A program made the position numbers and the translations under genes. Shown one piece after another: positions 32,805 to 45,105 of a stretch of DNA of 45,163 nucleotides; the first letter of the stretch is position 1; the number at the start of each line of letters is the position of its first letter. The notes beneath the pieces were generated by a model. That model was not told where the DNA came from, ran no database searches, and saw nothing but the letters and a program-made list of their open reading frames with translations. The stretch is from Flavobacteriales bacterium (GTDB lineage: Bacteria; Bacteroidota; Bacteroidia; Flavobacteriales; UBA7312): contig JADHMQ010000014.1 of the NCBI GenBank assembly GCA_016779935.1, positions 1 to 45,163 of the forward strand, given 5' to 3'.

Positions 32805-33686
32805 ATGAAAAAAATTATTATGCTTTTATTACCTTTATTGGTAATATCTTGCACTTCTCTTAAGAAAGAGGAGTGCCATTCTAAAGAAACTCAAAATTAC
32901 ACTTCTCATAGCCCAACGGCTCATCAGGAAGTAGCTTTAGAAGTTCTTTCCGCTAGCAAACAGTGGATTGAAAATTTCAATAAGGGCAATGCTAAAGAAT
33001 GTGCCAATGCTTACACATCAAGTTCTGTAATGAGAGCCTTGCCTTTTGGTGTTAAAAAATCAAAAGATGAAATTTTAGAATTTTGGACGTCACTTATTGG
33101 ATCAGGAGCTAACAATTTAGTGTATACTGATGTTTCAGTAGAAGTGGTTGATGAGCAAACCGTAATGTTATCAGCCAATTGGAGTATGAACATCGGAGAA
33201 GGAATTATTTACCAAGAAAAATGGGTGAAAGATAACGGCAAGTGGCATTAATCTTATGATGACTTTGAAGTGCTTTTACAGTATGAATCACCAATGAAAA
33301 ATGAGACTAATCCTATTGCTAGTCATGAAAGATTAGAAAATGTTTTATGAATCTCTATCGGTTGGACTAATTCTTTTAATTCTGGTGATGCAGCATCTTG
33401 TGGAGAAGGTTATGTTTCTAATGCATCTATGAATGCAGTACCATTTGCGTCTTTACATTCAAAAGATGAAATCACTTCATTTTGGGAAAAGTTAGTTGCT
33501 GATGGAGCGACAAATTTGACGTATCATAATTTATTAATAAGTGATGTTTCTCCTAATTCAATACTATTATCTTCTAACTGGTCAATGAATATAGGAGAAG
33601 GTAAAATATACCAAGAGAAATGGGTGAATACAGAGGGAGAGTGGAAATTGAATTACGATGAATTTCAGGTACTGAAGCAGTACTAA
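32805..33686 (+). pseudogene. Lipoprotein with tandem NTF2/SnoaL-like domains, broken by two in-frame stops
   Basis: The frame from ATG 32805 begins with a lipoprotein signal (lipobox VISC) and an NTF2/SnoaL-like domain (WIENFNKGNAKECANAYT ... ANWSMNIGEGIIYQEKWV). It stops at TAA 33249-33251, but the same frame continues with SYDDFEVLLQYESP, meets TGA at 33348-33350, and goes on as a second copy of the domain (SIGWTNSFNSGDAASCGEGY ... SNWSMNIGEGKIYQEKWV), ending YDEFQVLKQY at 33686. Comparing copies, the TAA replaces a residue between KW and YD(D/E)F, and the TGA falls just before the WxxxFN motif. No frameshift is needed. The function of the intact protein is unknown (the fold binds small hydrophobic ligands or acts as an enzyme). 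The first copy may still be made alone. Confidence 0.8.
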
Positions 33687-34541: not shown

Positions 34542-35720
34542 CTAAAATAATTCAACTACCATAGCTGAAGCACCTCCACCACCGTTGCAAATCCCGGCAG
34601 CACCTACCTTACCATTGTTGTGCTTTAAAACATGTAATAGGGTTACAATAATTCGGGCACCTGAACATCCAAGTGGATGACCTAAAGAGACCGCACCACC
34701 GTGCACATTTACTTTTGAAGCATCTAGACCTAACTTTTCAATATTAGCTAAGCCAACTACTGAAAAGGCTTCGTTTAGTTCGAAGAAATCCACATCGCCA
34801 GTATTTATATTGGCTTTTTCTAATGCAATTGGCAAAGCCTTTGCAGGTGCTGTTGTAAACCACTCTGCTTGGTGAGCAGCATCTGCATAACTTTTAATTT
34901 TAGCCAAAGGTTGTAATTTCAATTCCTTTGCTTTGTCGGCACTCATTAAAATTAAGGCAGCAGCACCGTCATTTAGAGTAGAAGCGTTGGCGGCTGTTAC
35001 GGTGCCTTCTTTGTCAAATACTGGGCGAAGAGTAGGTATTTTTTCCATCTTCACATTTTTGTACTCTTCGTCTTCTGAAATGATTAAATCGTCGCCTCGC
35101 CTTTGCGCTACGGACACAGGAACTACTTCATCGCTGAATTTTCCCTCTGACCATGCTTTAGCACTTCTGTTGTACGATTCAATAGCAAAAGCGTCTTGTT
35201 GTTCTCTAGTGAATCTCATCTCTTTGGCACATAGCTCGGCACAGTTTCCCATGTGTACTTTGTTGTATACGTCAGTAAGACCGTCTTTCACCAAACCATC
35301 GACCAATTTCATATCGCCTAATTTCTGACCGTTTCTTCCTTTGGTGAAATAATGTGGTACAGCAGACATATTTTCCATACCTCCAGCAACGACTACATCA
35401 TTATCTCCACACATTATGCTTTGTGCAGCTAACATAATTGACTTCATTCCAGAAGAACATACTTTATTGATGGTTGTGCAAGGAACATCTTGATTTAGTC
35501 CTGCACCCATTGCAGCTTGTTTGGCTGGGGCTTGTCCTAAATTAGCTTGCAAGACGTTGCCCATATAAACTTCATCTATTTCATCGGGATTAATTCCTGC
35601 TTTTTCAACTGCTCCTTTAATAGCGACGCTTCCAAGTTGAGTGGCAGAAACACTTGATAATGCTCCTCCAAAACTTCCCATTGGGGTTCTTACAGCTGAT
35701 ACGATTACTACTTCTTTCAT
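34542..35720 (-). CDS. Acetyl-CoA C-acyltransferase (thiolase)
   Basis: A 392-residue thiolase, either biosynthetic (acetoacetyl-CoA forming) or beta-oxidation type. ATG 35720 gives the standard start MKEVVIVSAVRTPMGSFGG; the frame upstream to 35789 adds 23 unrelated residues. Nucleophile Cys88 lies in INKVCSSGMKS, the His motif is GGAVSLGHPLGCSGARI, the C-terminal Cys motif GICNGGGGASAMV, and the NEAF box is present. It stands alone, with no hydratase or dehydrogenase next to it, so direction and chain length are open. It has its own terminator and a divergent neighbour. Confidence 0.96.
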   Translation of the reverse strand: MKEVVIVSAVRTPMGSFGGALSSVSATQLGSVAIKGAVEKAGINPDEIDEVYMGNVLQANLGQAPAKQAAMGAGLNQDVPCTTINKVCSSGMKSIMLAAQSIMCGDNDVVVAGGMENMSAVPHYFTKGRNGQKLGDMKLVDGLVKDGLTDVYNKVHMGNCAELCAKEMRFTREQQDAFAIESYNRSAKAWSEGKFSDEVVPVSVAQRRGDDLIISEDEEYKNVKMEKIPTLRPVFDKEGTVTAANASTLNDGAAALILMSADKAKELKLQPLAKIKSYADAAHQAEWFTTAPAKALPIALEKANINTGDVDFFELNEAFSVVGLANIEKLGLDASKVNVHGGAVSLGHPLGCSGARIIVTLLHVLKHNNGKVGAAGICNGGGGASAMVVELF

Positions 35721-35821
35721 TTTGCTTTTTTTATAATTGGATACTGCACGCGAAGTTAATGAAAAAGACCTATTATCGTGGCTTTGCAAACTTGTTATTT
35801 ATTGGTATTTTAGTCGGCGAT

Positions 35822-37927
35822 ATGCGATTTAACTTCCCTTTTGATATTCGGAACAACTACTACAAAATTCAGAAAGTTGCCTTGTTTCTATTAGCTACTG
35901 TACTGATTGTATGGATGTTTCCAAACAGAGCATCTTTCAAGTATGAATTTCAGAAAGGAAAACCTTGGATGCATGAGAATTTAATTGCCCCTTATGACTT
36001 TCCAGTATACAAATCCAACGAACAGCTTTCTATTGAACAATTACAGGTTAGAAATAATCTGAAGCCTACTTTTGTAGTAGATGAGTCTGTATATGAAATT
36101 AAAGCAGAAGAATTTATTTCCAATTTTGAGCAAAAATGGGCAATTGATAAAAACTTAAAGAAAGATACTCGCTTTACCTTTTTTAATTTGAATAAAAAGA
36201 AGCAACAAAAAACCAAAAAGGAAAAATTGGCTTTTTATGGATTAAACATAATTGAAAACCTTTATTCAAAAGGGATTGTACAGTTAATAGATGACATTGA
36301 GTATCAAGAGGAAGATTTTGAAATAATAGTAATGCGTTCCAATGTGGGTGAAGTTAAACGCTTGGGAAAACTTTATACCATAGAATCCGCTTCGAAAAAA
36401 GCCTATGAACTCCCCAATTTAGCTGAGAATGAAAAAGAATTTTTAGCACCTCTTATTCTACAATCGTTAAAGCAAAACGTCTTTTATGATGAGGACGCCA
36501 CCAACAAAATGCTTGATAGCGAGTTGAACGAAATATCTAAAGGTTTGGGTATGGTGCAAAGGGGAGAGGTTATTATCTCTCAAGGAGAATTAGTAACAGA
36601 AAGTAATTTTCAGAAATTAGAGTCGTACCGACTGCGCTATGAGGGTGAGAATTGGCAAGATAATTCAGAGCGTTTACTGAGTTTGGGACAGTCTTTACTG
36701 GTTTTAATTGCATTTCTAATACTTTATTTATTTCTCAAGCAGTTTAGACCTGAGGTATTTATGGATAACAAAAAGGTGACTTTTATTCTCACCTTAATCA
36801 TCATCATGGTTTTAATGGCAAGCTTGTCCTTAATACCAAATAATAATCTCATATTCCTTATGCCTTTCTGTTTATTGCCCATTATTATTAAGGCATTTTT
36901 TGATACTCGATTAGCTTTGTTTACACATCTCATTGCTATCATAATTATTGGTTTTATAGTGCCAAATAGTTTCGAGTTTATCTACTTACAGCTCATGGCA
37001 GGGATAGTCTCAATTTTATCGGTATTACAGATGTATAAGCGTGCTCAGCTTTTCGTGTCTGCTGCTAAAATAATAGGTGTTTATTTCCTTACTTATTTTG
37101 CAATGGCTTTAACCCAAGAGGGTAGTATTGATAATATTGACTGGATGAATTTTGTGTGGTTTGCTGGTAATGGAGCATTAACACTATTTGCCTATCCATT
37201 AATTTTTGCTTTTGAAAAAACATTTTCACTAGTATCAGATGTTTCACTTTTAGAATTATCAGATACCAACAATCCATTACTAAGAACACTGGCTCAGAAT
37301 GCACCTGGCACATTTCAACATTCAATTCAGGTTGCTAACCTTGCCGAAGAAGGAATTTTAGAAATTGGAGGAAATGCACTGCTAGTGAGGGCTGGTGCTT
37401 TGTACCATGATATTGGTAAGATGAAAAATCCTCAATTTTTTATTGAAAATCAGATATCAGGGATTAATCCTCACGATGATATGAGCTTTGAGGAAAGTGC
37501 AAGAATCATCATTGAACATGTGAAAAATGGAATAGAAATAGCCAAAGAATATAATTTACCTGATGAGCTGATAGACTTTATTCGCACACATCATGGGACA
37601 ACTATGGTGGGTTATTTTTACAAACACCATATCAGCAGTTTTCCCGATGAATTGGAATCTGAAGATAAGTTTAGATATCCTGGTCCTAAGCCATTTTCTA
37701 AAGAAACAGCTGTATTGATGATGTCCGATTCTGTAGAGGCTGCCGCCAGAAGCTTAAAATCTCCTACTTTAGAGAATATTGATAAACTTGTAGAGAATGT
37801 TATAAATCATCAGATAGATCAAAACCAATTCGTTAATGCAGATATTACCTTGAAATCTATTACCAAAATTAAGAAATTGTTCAAGAAGAAATTACAGAGT
37901 ATTCATCACCTCAGGGTGGAATACTAA
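35822..37927 (+). CDS. 7TM receptor with HD hydrolase domain (PgpH-type c-di-AMP phosphodiesterase)
   Basis: A membrane protein of about 700 residues with a first transmembrane helix (KVALFLLATVLIVWMFP), a large extracytoplasmic 7TMR-HDED domain, about seven membrane helices (roughly 36690-37230) and a cytoplasmic HD domain. The HD domain shows QHSIQVANLAEEG, the metal-binding pair in LYHDIGKMKNP and FIRTHHGTTMVGYFY. Listeria PgpH of this family degrades cyclic di-AMP; the same role here is inferred. ATG 35822 matches the usual short N-terminus before the first helix; ATG 35759 would add 21 residues and is possible, while the frame back to 35654 overlaps the thiolase gene and is unlikely. Confidence 0.92.
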   Translation: MRFNFPFDIRNNYYKIQKVALFLLATVLIVWMFPNRASFKYEFQKGKPWMHENLIAPYDFPVYKSNEQLSIEQLQVRNNLKPTFVVDESVYEIKAEEFISNFEQKWAIDKNLKKDTRFTFFNLNKKKQQKTKKEKLAFYGLNIIENLYSKGIVQLIDDIEYQEEDFEIIVMRSNVGEVKRLGKLYTIESASKKAYELPNLAENEKEFLAPLILQSLKQNVFYDEDATNKMLDSELNEISKGLGMVQRGEVIISQGELVTESNFQKLESYRLRYEGENWQDNSERLLSLGQSLLVLIAFLILYLFLKQFRPEVFMDNKKVTFILTLIIIMVLMASLSLIPNNNLIFLMPFCLLPIIIKAFFDTRLALFTHLIAIIIIGFIVPNSFEFIYLQLMAGIVSILSVLQMYKRAQLFVSAAKIIGVYFLTYFAMALTQEGSIDNIDWMNFVWFAGNGALTLFAYPLIFAFEKTFSLVSDVSLLELSDTNNPLLRTLAQNAPGTFQHSIQVANLAEEGILEIGGNALLVRAGALYHDIGKMKNPQFFIENQISGINPHDDMSFEESARIIIEHVKNGIEIAKEYNLPDELIDFIRTHHGTTMVGYFYKHHISSFPDELESEDKFRYPGPKPFSKETAVLMMSDSVEAAARSLKSPTLENIDKLVENVINHQIDQNQFVNADITLKSITKIKKLFKKKLQSIHHLRVEY

Positions 37928-37928
37928 A

Positions 37929-38804
37929 TTATTTCAACAACAGTCGTTTAGCATCTACCTTTCTATCATTTACAGATAATCGTAACACATAAACACCAGC
38001 TCTCAGCTCTGGTTTGTTGAGTGTAATGTGGTGTAATTTTTTGGTGCAGTTTTGTTCAAACAATACCTTAGTTTCTCTACCCATTACATCGCATATATCT
38101 AATGTGACAAGAGCATTTTTGTTGTTGTAAAATCGAATTTCAAATTGCTCACTGACAGGGTTTGGAGATATAGATTCTATTTTGCTTGGAATATCGTTTC
38201 TGTCGTACTGATTTAAGTTAACAGTATCTACATCAACATTTAGGTAAATATCAAAAACACCATTTGCATTGTTGTTATCGTCCGTAGTAAGCGGAATAAT
38301 CCTATCTACTGCAGAAGGATCAGATGCCCAAGGGTCAATATCAAGAGTAGTATCGCCTTCAAAATACAATTGAGTAACTAGTTCAGGGTTATTGAGGTAT
38401 TGTATCTTGAAATGGATATGGCTAGGACGGTAGTAGCTACCGTTTAAATATTTTCCTGGCTGAATACTTTCAAAAGCATAATTTCCTACCTCGTCGGTAT
38501 ATATTTTTCCTCTATAGTCTACATCTTCATAAGCACCCTCATTATTGGCTTGCCAAACATCTATTAGAGCATTAGGAACTGGCGTTACACAATCTTTTGC
38601 ATATACAGTACCTGTAATGAATAGGCGGTTAACATCTGGAATTTCTGGAGCAATTACGCTAATGTTCGGAGCACCTTCAATAAAGTATGGTCCTAAAATG
38701 TCATCGGTTGTAACGCATTCGTCTTTAGCCAATAAATTTTTGAAAGGAATAAATGGTAATAAGGAGGCGCTAATGAACGATTTTAAGGCTTGTCTTCTTT
38801 TCAT
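37929..38804 (-). CDS. Secreted intradiol ring-cleavage dioxygenase-like protein with T9SS type A tail
   Basis: A 291-residue protein. The N-terminus, MKRRQALKSFISASLLPF, looks like a twin-arginine signal (RRxxLK followed by a hydrophobic stretch). Residues about 30-200 match the intradiol dioxygenase fold: DDILGPYFIEGAP, ALIDVWQANNEGAYE, YRGKIYTDEVGNYAFESIQP and RPSHIHFKI with the iron ligands His129 and His131; nearby Tyr residues (87-125) can supply the other ligands. Residues about 213-291 are a T9SS type A sorting domain (ISPNPVSEQFEIRF ... LRAGVYVLRLSV). The substrate is unknown; secreted members may act on aromatic compounds outside the cell. It starts with a four-base overlap on the ridA stop. 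Confidence 0.9.
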   Translation of the reverse strand: MKRRQALKSFISASLLPFIPFKNLLAKDECVTTDDILGPYFIEGAPNISVIAPEIPDVNRLFITGTVYAKDCVTPVPNALIDVWQANNEGAYEDVDYRGKIYTDEVGNYAFESIQPGKYLNGSYYRPSHIHFKIQYLNNPELVTQLYFEGDTTLDIDPWASDPSAVDRIIPLTTDDNNNANGVFDIYLNVDVDTVNLNQYDRNDIPSKIESISPNPVSEQFEIRFYNNKNALVTLDICDVMGRETKVLFEQNCTKKLHHITLNKPELRAGVYVLRLSVNDRKVDAKRLLLK

Positions 38805-39181
38805 TCTTTTGAGGCTATTAGTGAAATTTCAATATTGACGTGTTTTGGTAATACACTGACCTGAACGGCTTCTCTAGCTGGTGGTTTCTCACCAAAATAC
38901 TGGGCATAAACCGCATTTATTTCAGCGTATTGGTTCATGTCATTTAAAAATATGGTGCATTTAAGAACATGAGAAAAATCCATTTCGGCAGCAGAGAGAA
39001 CTGCCTCAAGATTTTTCATAACCTGATGGGTTTCATCGGATATATTATCAGTAATTAACTCTCCTGATTTAGGGTCAATAGCAATCTGTCCAGATGTGTA
39101 CAAGGTATTATTGGATAATATCGCTTGGCTGTAAGGACCTATTGCTTCAGGTGCGTCAGAAGTATAAATTACTTTTTTCAT
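38801..39181 (-). CDS. ridA: RidA-family enamine/imine deaminase
   Basis: A 126-residue cytoplasmic protein of the RidA (YjgF/UK114) family, which hydrolyses reactive 2-aminoacrylate and related imines. The N-terminus MKKVIYTSDAPEAIGPYSQAI, the block TSGQIAIDPKSGEL and the C-terminal ARxAVQVSVLPKHVNIEISL are all typical, including the Arg that anchors the substrate carboxylate. ATG 39181 was chosen; the frame upstream to 39328 runs through the RNase P RNA gene and is a shadow. It is the first gene of a two-gene unit with the dioxygenase, and its promoter is face to face with that of rnpB. Confidence 0.95.
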   Translation of the reverse strand: MKKVIYTSDAPEAIGPYSQAILSNNTLYTSGQIAIDPKSGELITDNISDETHQVMKNLEAVLSAAEMDFSHVLKCTIFLNDMNQYAEINAVYAQYFGEKPPAREAVQVSVLPKHVNIEISLIASKE

Positions 39182-39213: not shown

Positions 39214-39507
39214 AGTAGTGATAGACTTCATCGCTTTCGCAAGGAAGAGGAAAGTCCGGACACCATAGAGCAGCATAGCGGATAACATCCGTCCATCGTA
39301 AGGTGAGGACCAGTGCAACAGAAAGCAAGTACAGTTCGGCTGTAGTGAAACCAGGTAAACTCTATGCGGTGCAATGTCATGTATACCGAGAACAGGGATT
39401 GCTCGTTCAATCTCGGGGGGTGGGCAGCTCAAGCTATTCAGTAATGTATAGCGTAGATAAATGATGAAGCTCGTAAGAGAACAGAATCCGGCTTATGAAT
39501 TACTACC
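39214..39507 (+). ncRNA. rnpB: RNase P RNA, bacterial class A
   Basis: The catalytic RNA that trims tRNA 5' ends. The universally conserved 5' block GAGGAAAGTCCGGACACC (39253-39270) and the 3' block ACAGAATCCGGCTTA (39481-39495) form helix P4 and its surroundings. The two ends pair as helix P1 (AGTAGTGAT at 39214-39222 with ATTACTACC near 39499-39507), which sets both ends of the gene. It is followed at once by a strong terminator. At roughly 295 bases it is compact for class A. Antisense and sense reading frames crossing it (39178-39432 minus, 39228-39410 minus, the frame from 39461 plus) are not genes. Confidence 0.96.
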
Positions 39508-39508
39508 T

Positions 39509-39537
39509 GCTGCCCCTTGTGGGCAGCTTTTTTTTTA
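39509..39537 (+). terminator. Rho-independent terminator of rnpB
   Basis: GCTGCCC (39509-39515) pairs perfectly with GGGCAGC (39521-39527) around a five-base loop, followed by nine T. It starts one base after helix P1 of the RNase P RNA. Confidence 0.95.
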
Positions 39538-45027: not shown

Positions 45028-45105
45028 CGGGATGTAGCTTAGTCCGGTTAAAGTGCGCGTCTGGGGGGCGCGAGATCGGAGGTTCGAATCCTCTCATCCC
45101 GACCA
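45028..45105 (+). tRNA. tRNA-Pro, anticodon GGG
   Basis: A complete cloverleaf of 78 bases including an encoded CCA. Acceptor stem CGGGATG/CATCCCG; D arm GCTT...AAGT with GG in the loop; anticodon stem CGCGT/GCGCG with loop CTGGGGG, so the anticodon at 45063-45065 is GGG; T arm GGAGG-TTCGAAT-CCTCT. Read codons are CCC and CCU. The C1-G72 start is a normal proline tRNA identity element in bacteria. A terminator follows 19 bases later. Confidence 0.96.

Follow-up and report, generated by a model that had tools for sequence, protein, structure and literature searches.

T9SS is usually described as taking cargo that was exported by Sec and folded in the periplasm. Two reviews give a Sec signal as the first export step of such cargo (PMC9251779, PMC5445135), and another article refers to Sec as well as Tat in connection with T2SS and T9SS, naming no T9SS cargo there (PMC8714846). 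Exoproteins of Proteobacteria that pass first through Tat and then through T2SS have been described (PMC9127263, PMC4899797). We found no described T9SS cargo with a Tat signal in the literature searched, which covers few subscription journals and was partly available as excerpts.

Secreted intradiol dioxygenases, the enzyme family considered here, include SACTE_2871 of Streptomyces sp. SirexAA-E (PDB 4ILT, 4ILV), in which the enzyme is fused to a carbohydrate-binding module (carbohydrate or lignin). SACTE_2871 is reportedly monomeric and without the helical dimerisation domain. Fungi and spider mites likewise export dioxygenases of this family (TuDOGs; 5VG2, 6BDJ), but through eukaryotic secretion, and to our knowledge such enzymes would not carry Tat or T9SS signals. 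Plant catecholic compounds are the substrates of secreted relatives from mites, fungi and bacteria (PMC9167512).

The flavobacterial protein described here resembles each of these systems in part. Like SACTE_2871 it is a predicted secreted dioxygenase with an extra domain, which is a T9SS sorting domain instead of a carbohydrate-binding module, and its structural matches include the fungal and mite enzymes. It carries the TIGR04183/PF18962 tail of a T9SS type A cargo in a genome that encodes SprA and PorU, but its first signal is Tat-like where the reviews give Sec. With the proteobacterial exoproteins it would share the order of Tat followed by an outer-membrane machine; that machine would be T9SS, addressed by a C-terminal domain, rather than T2SS.

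The dioxygenase gene and its product

The gene lies on contig JADHMQ010000014.1 of a Flavobacteriales bacterium (assembly GCA_016779935.1), of which the whole stretch of 45,163 nucleotides was analysed and is referred to as the window. The features of the locus are as follows.

37929..38804, minus strand: ORF P0001 (291 aa) for an intradiol dioxygenase that carries an RR signal and a T9SS type A sorting domain
38727..38804, minus strand: signal peptide at the N-terminus (residues 1-26, the cleavage site after LLA-26 being a guess by eye)
38793..38798, minus strand: twin arginine R3-R4, codons AGA AGA
38742..38780, minus strand: hydrophobic core (SFISASLLPFIPF, residues 9-21), with K22 next in the c-region
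38244..38696, minus strand: intradiol dioxygenase domain, residues 37-187 (PF00775 profile match; fold match to 4ILV/4ILT)
38529..38531, minus strand: predicted Fe(III) ligand Tyr92
38448..38450, minus strand: predicted Fe(III) ligand Tyr119
38412..38420, minus strand: predicted Fe(III) ligands His129 and His131 (HIH)
37950..38171, minus strand: T9SS type A sorting domain, residues 212-285 (PF18962 and TIGR04183 matches)
38801..39181, minus strand: RidA-type gene directly upstream of the dioxygenase (PF01042 profile match)
35654-37927, plus strand: 7TM-HD hydrolase, convergent neighbour of the dioxygenase (PF07698, PF07697, PF01966)

The ORF starts with ATG and its product with MKRRQALKSFISASLLPFIPFKNLLAKDEC; no in-frame ATG, GTG or TTG was present upstream. 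An earlier note on this DNA had read the product as an iron dioxygenase that begins with KRRQALK and a hydrophobic stretch and ends in a type A sorting domain, and the ORF and the PF00775, PF18962 and TIGR04183 matches bore this out. The PF00775 match scored 75.5 bits (curated cut-off 27.3; E 4.7e-21). Ligand positions Y92, Y119, H129 and H131 were assigned by way of the protocatechuate dioxygenase motifs, and all four ligands (YYHH) were present in 63 of 64 rows of the family. The exception, a relative with RR signal and tail (L047:1489-2397), had Lys in the column of the first ligand Tyr and is possibly inactive or misaligned.

In the AlphaFold model (mean pLDDT 79.5) both domains formed ordered beta structure, while residues 1-29 were disordered (pLDDT <50). 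The best match in structure and in sequence was the dioxygenase domain of SACTE_2871 (4ILV/4ILT; 31% identity). We infer that the window protein is a small Fe(III) intradiol, catechol-cleaving dioxygenase of predicted activity and substrate, and that it is probably monomeric.

The sorting domain scored 35.8 bits with PF18962 (cut-off 27) and 31.3 bits with TIGR04183 (cut-off 23). An HMM built solely from other cargoes of the same genome gave the window protein 44.6 bits. The source genome (1.68 Mb, 99% complete) had 61 type A tail matches and encoded TatC, two TatA-type proteins, SprA (2619 bits) and PorU (1332 bits in the profile search). TatC was found in 295 of the 297 good genomes of the order, so that its presence does not discriminate, and a correlation between TatC and RR was dropped as uninformative. 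Among the 20 listed of 26 genomes lacking TatC, at least eight drafts (53-90% complete) had a dioxygenase relative.

The stop of the RidA-type gene and the start of the dioxygenase gene overlapped by 4 nt in the window and in its genus mate, and the two genes may be co-transcribed. RidA and 7TM-HD matches flanked the dioxygenase at seven loci from six other genomes of the window's family, with RidA directly upstream, and at none of the other loci (63 searched, many with short flanks). Adjoining the RidA-type gene, and divergent from it, is a class A RNase P RNA (RF00010, 185 bits; 39215-39510, plus strand); a tRNA lies at 45028-45102 (plus strand). Two short neighbouring ORFs on the plus strand, 32805-33251 (sub-threshold DUF4440 match) and 33429-33686 (no match), had a common stretch like SSNWSMNIGEGKIYQEKWV, which could reflect the partial duplication of a small gene.

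Twin-arginine signals in the family

Tat signals have the consensus S/T-R-R-x-F-L-K, and their weakly hydrophobic core and basic c-region are features of Sec avoidance. Matches to the window protein at E 1e-15 were collected within the order, where 61 of 395 genomes, its own included, had one, and their N-termini were read. The 63 readable rows comprised 46 with RR (window included), 15 with a plain Sec signal and two with KR or RK, one locus being counted twice. A phylum-wide search found PF00775 in 70 of 395 genomes; 30 loci were listed, 14 of them with an ORF by the motif filter, and these 14 include five that look cytosolic, the window protein itself and a repeat of L084. With seven rows from this search added to those of the order and the duplicate removed, the final set had 69 rows: RR with tail 45, KR with tail 1, no RR with tail 14, RR without tail 5, RK without tail 3 and neither 1.

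The 45 distinct rows with RR and tail were the window protein, 42 others of the order and two from beyond it, L035 from a Saprospiraceae MAG and L158 from another part of the phylum. The earlier note had made its reading depend on conservation of RR in orthologs, and this held: 45 of the 46 tailed rows that fall on the RR side of the family tree had RR and the other KR, which leaves 44 distinct relatives with both RR and tail. In an alignment of 42 sequences, with identity to the window protein as low as 33%, R4 was invariant and R3 conserved at ≥90%; all 42 aligned RR-side members matched PF00775 and Por_Secre_tail. The motif tally for the 45 rows was R-R 45, F(+3) 37, L(+4) 39 and K or R(+5) 44. 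The residue before RR was mostly N (19) or S (13), giving N/S-R-R-x-F-L-K as the typical form. By its residues the family motif thus appears to follow the Tat consensus, which sets it apart from a plain basic n-region.

The first Arg was encoded by AGA (37), CGA (4), CGT (3) or AGG (2) across the order, and the second by six codons. The other basic residues ahead of RR in the 50 RR rows were K in 89 cases versus R in two. Since the Arg codons vary and Lys is used almost exclusively elsewhere before RR, the doublet looks held by selection. The pairing of a Tat-like signal with a T9SS tail, as predicted from these sequences, is a conserved property of this dioxygenase family, deep clades included. 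One member from the window's family (L044, in G004) grouped with f11-type relatives and not with the window type, a placement that points to horizontal transfer or to paralogy.

The other type A cargoes of the source genome served for comparison. Besides the window protein there were 60 tail matches, of which 57 were read (the remainder being two short fragments and one cut by the end of the window's own contig), and 47 of the 57 had a readable signal. None of the 47 signals contained RR, and a recheck of the first 120 aa found RR only outside the signals. Together with the RR kept in nearly all tailed rows of the RR side, this speaks against a chance pairing. Five of these cargoes (L099, L103, L105, L123 and L126) had been cut at a late start, which lowers the doublet count, but their longer N-termini had no RR signal either. 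Mean core hydrophobicity was 1.86 in the RR rows, 2.17 in the Sec-signal relatives and 2.29 in the 47 cargoes (RR rows versus cargoes p 1e-8, the rows not being independent). K or R occurred within 6 aa past the core in 45 of 46 RR rows, compared with 1 of 15 Sec-signal relatives and 13 of 47 other cargoes. With a Tat PSSM built from 14 other Tat signals, the mean score was 13.2 for the 50 RR rows, −8.3 for the 15 Sec-signal relatives and −8.0 for the 47 cargoes, and 46 of the 50 RR rows exceeded the best-scoring cargo. The Tat signal model TIGR01409 matched 13 of 42 aligned RR-side members at E 1 versus none of 14 Sec-clade members, and relatives in G019 and G032 passed its curated cut-off.

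A wider check for proteins with both signals covered 29 TIGR01409 loci and two further loci (L032 and L033), with nine full-length non-dioxygenase ORFs that carried a Tat motif. The tail HMM matched none of the frames of these loci. Most of the remaining TIGR01409-locus frames end at the locus edge and presumably resemble one molybdopterin-type oxidoreductase. In this limited survey, the pairing of RR signal and tail was found only in the dioxygenase family.

Export route of the window protein and its relatives

The window protein is the poorest Tat case, a degenerate member of the RR family. Its motif, K-R-R-Q-A-L-K, is without the S/T and the F of the consensus, and TIGR01409 did not match it, so that it is filed only as Tat-like and not as a member of that model. 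Its PSSM score of −0.75 was the lowest of the 50 RR rows, tied with its genus mate L038; three of the 47 other cargoes scored higher, placing it inside the upper range of Sec cargoes. The Pro- and Phe-rich core had a hydrophobicity of 1.63, below 44 of the 47 other cargoes. The motif is degenerate throughout the window's genus and its sister genus (RRQALK or RRQAIK), and all seven members of the window's family have A for F at +3. In the same seven, RR and the c-region K are retained, as are L/I at +4 and K at +5. Their shared RR is by itself weak evidence, since codons 2-5 do not differ among the seven sequences. What speaks for possible Tat use by the window protein is its origin in a clearly Tat-like family, together with these retained residues.

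Tailed relatives with Sec signals occur as well. A separate clade of 14 dioxygenases, all from genus g61, had Sec signals, tails and the four iron ligands; one g61 genome instead had the RR type (L067). Loss of the iron site in the Sec-type relatives was ruled out by YYHH in 14 of 14. That their tails are not real was likewise rejected, as all 14 matched TIGR04183 at E ≤1 and one member shown passed the curated cut-off. Sec thus apparently can, and in this clade probably does, export a tailed dioxygenase domain. With tails and ligands intact here, Tat is needed neither for export by T9SS nor for the iron site; it is apparently a preference of the RR family that neither the fold nor T9SS imposes.

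The nine untailed rows comprised five with RR (L084/L154, L153, L156, L157 and L159), three with RK (L060, L155 and L160) and one with a Sec signal (L068). From this distribution the Tat-type signal was probably first and the tail added later, although the survey is small and the three RK rows, which lack the full doublet, count against the Tat reading; the subfamily would then probably have been a Tat-exported enzyme before it gained the sorting domain. L068, the second dioxygenase match in its genome (G106), had a Sec-type signal, four ligands and no detected tail. As a paralog with a Sec signal, it represents a change of signal type within the RR side of the tree.

Such a switch is also conceivable for the window lineage. 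It may have drifted to Sec, or to use of either route, with RR as the vestige of a Tat-using ancestor and a tail that works as in other cargoes. The A in place of F, the composition of the core, the PSSM score within the Sec-cargo range and the missing TIGR01409 match all fit this account, as do the likely Sec export of tailed relatives in the separate clade and the paralog L068, which kept its ligands. However, RR, L/I(+4), K(+5) and the c-region K are retained in all seven family members, the core is weaker than those of nearly all other cargoes (44 of 47), and RR is wholly absent from the 14 Sec-clade rows and from L068. We consider drift to Sec possible but rather doubtful. It is very unlikely that the enzyme is exported by Tat and then stays periplasmic with a degenerate, unused C-terminal domain: the tail scores are modest (31.3 and 35.8 bits) and the tail is where the highest proportion of residues has changed in the window's family, but both tail models scored over their cut-offs, the tail models matched 42 of 42 aligned members, the HMM from other cargoes recognised the window protein, and the C-terminal part is an ordered beta domain in the AlphaFold model.

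The cysteines C30 and C72 were also weighed. A disulfide between them, if there is one, would need to form after Tat export, which we counted against a Tat-T9SS relay; the AlphaFold model is poor near C30. The equivalents of both residues are missing together in L084 and L153. The Sec clade has a similar pair, C22 and C66, without exception in its 14 rows, although its second Cys was aligned to another column than C72.

Passage through Tat and then T9SS, which would put a folded catechol-cleaving enzyme at the cell surface, seems to us the most likely course for the window protein, and we regard it as reasonably probable. This reading, proposed in the earlier note, gained from the conserved RR-x-F-L-K, the basic c-region and the sorting domain of the family and from the Tat and T9SS parts encoded in the genome; it lost ground through the degenerate motif and low PSSM score of the window protein itself and through the 14 tailed, ligand-bearing relatives with Sec signals. 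The enzyme would fold and, we infer, load iron in the cytoplasm before export. The twin-arginine signal would then send it folded through TatA/TatC into the periplasm and would be removed after this passage. The type A C-terminal domain would take the enzyme through the SprA translocon, PorU would remove the tail, and the enzyme would be released or attached at the cell surface, where it may cleave environmental catechols. We lean towards the same relay for the conserved surface-enzyme family of the Flavobacteriales as a whole, whose members would fold with iron in the cytoplasm and cross both membranes without unfolding.

Implications for T9SS

If this route is true, T9SS accepts cargo that arrives already folded, possibly with its metal cofactor, and the enzyme would be a clean substrate for probing what the SprA channel passes. 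The clade with Sec signals has that active site and tail too, so the two entry routes, and what Tat adds, can be compared in naturally occurring pairs. The dioxygenases with RR signal and tail would be a good test case for Tat and T9SS working in relay.
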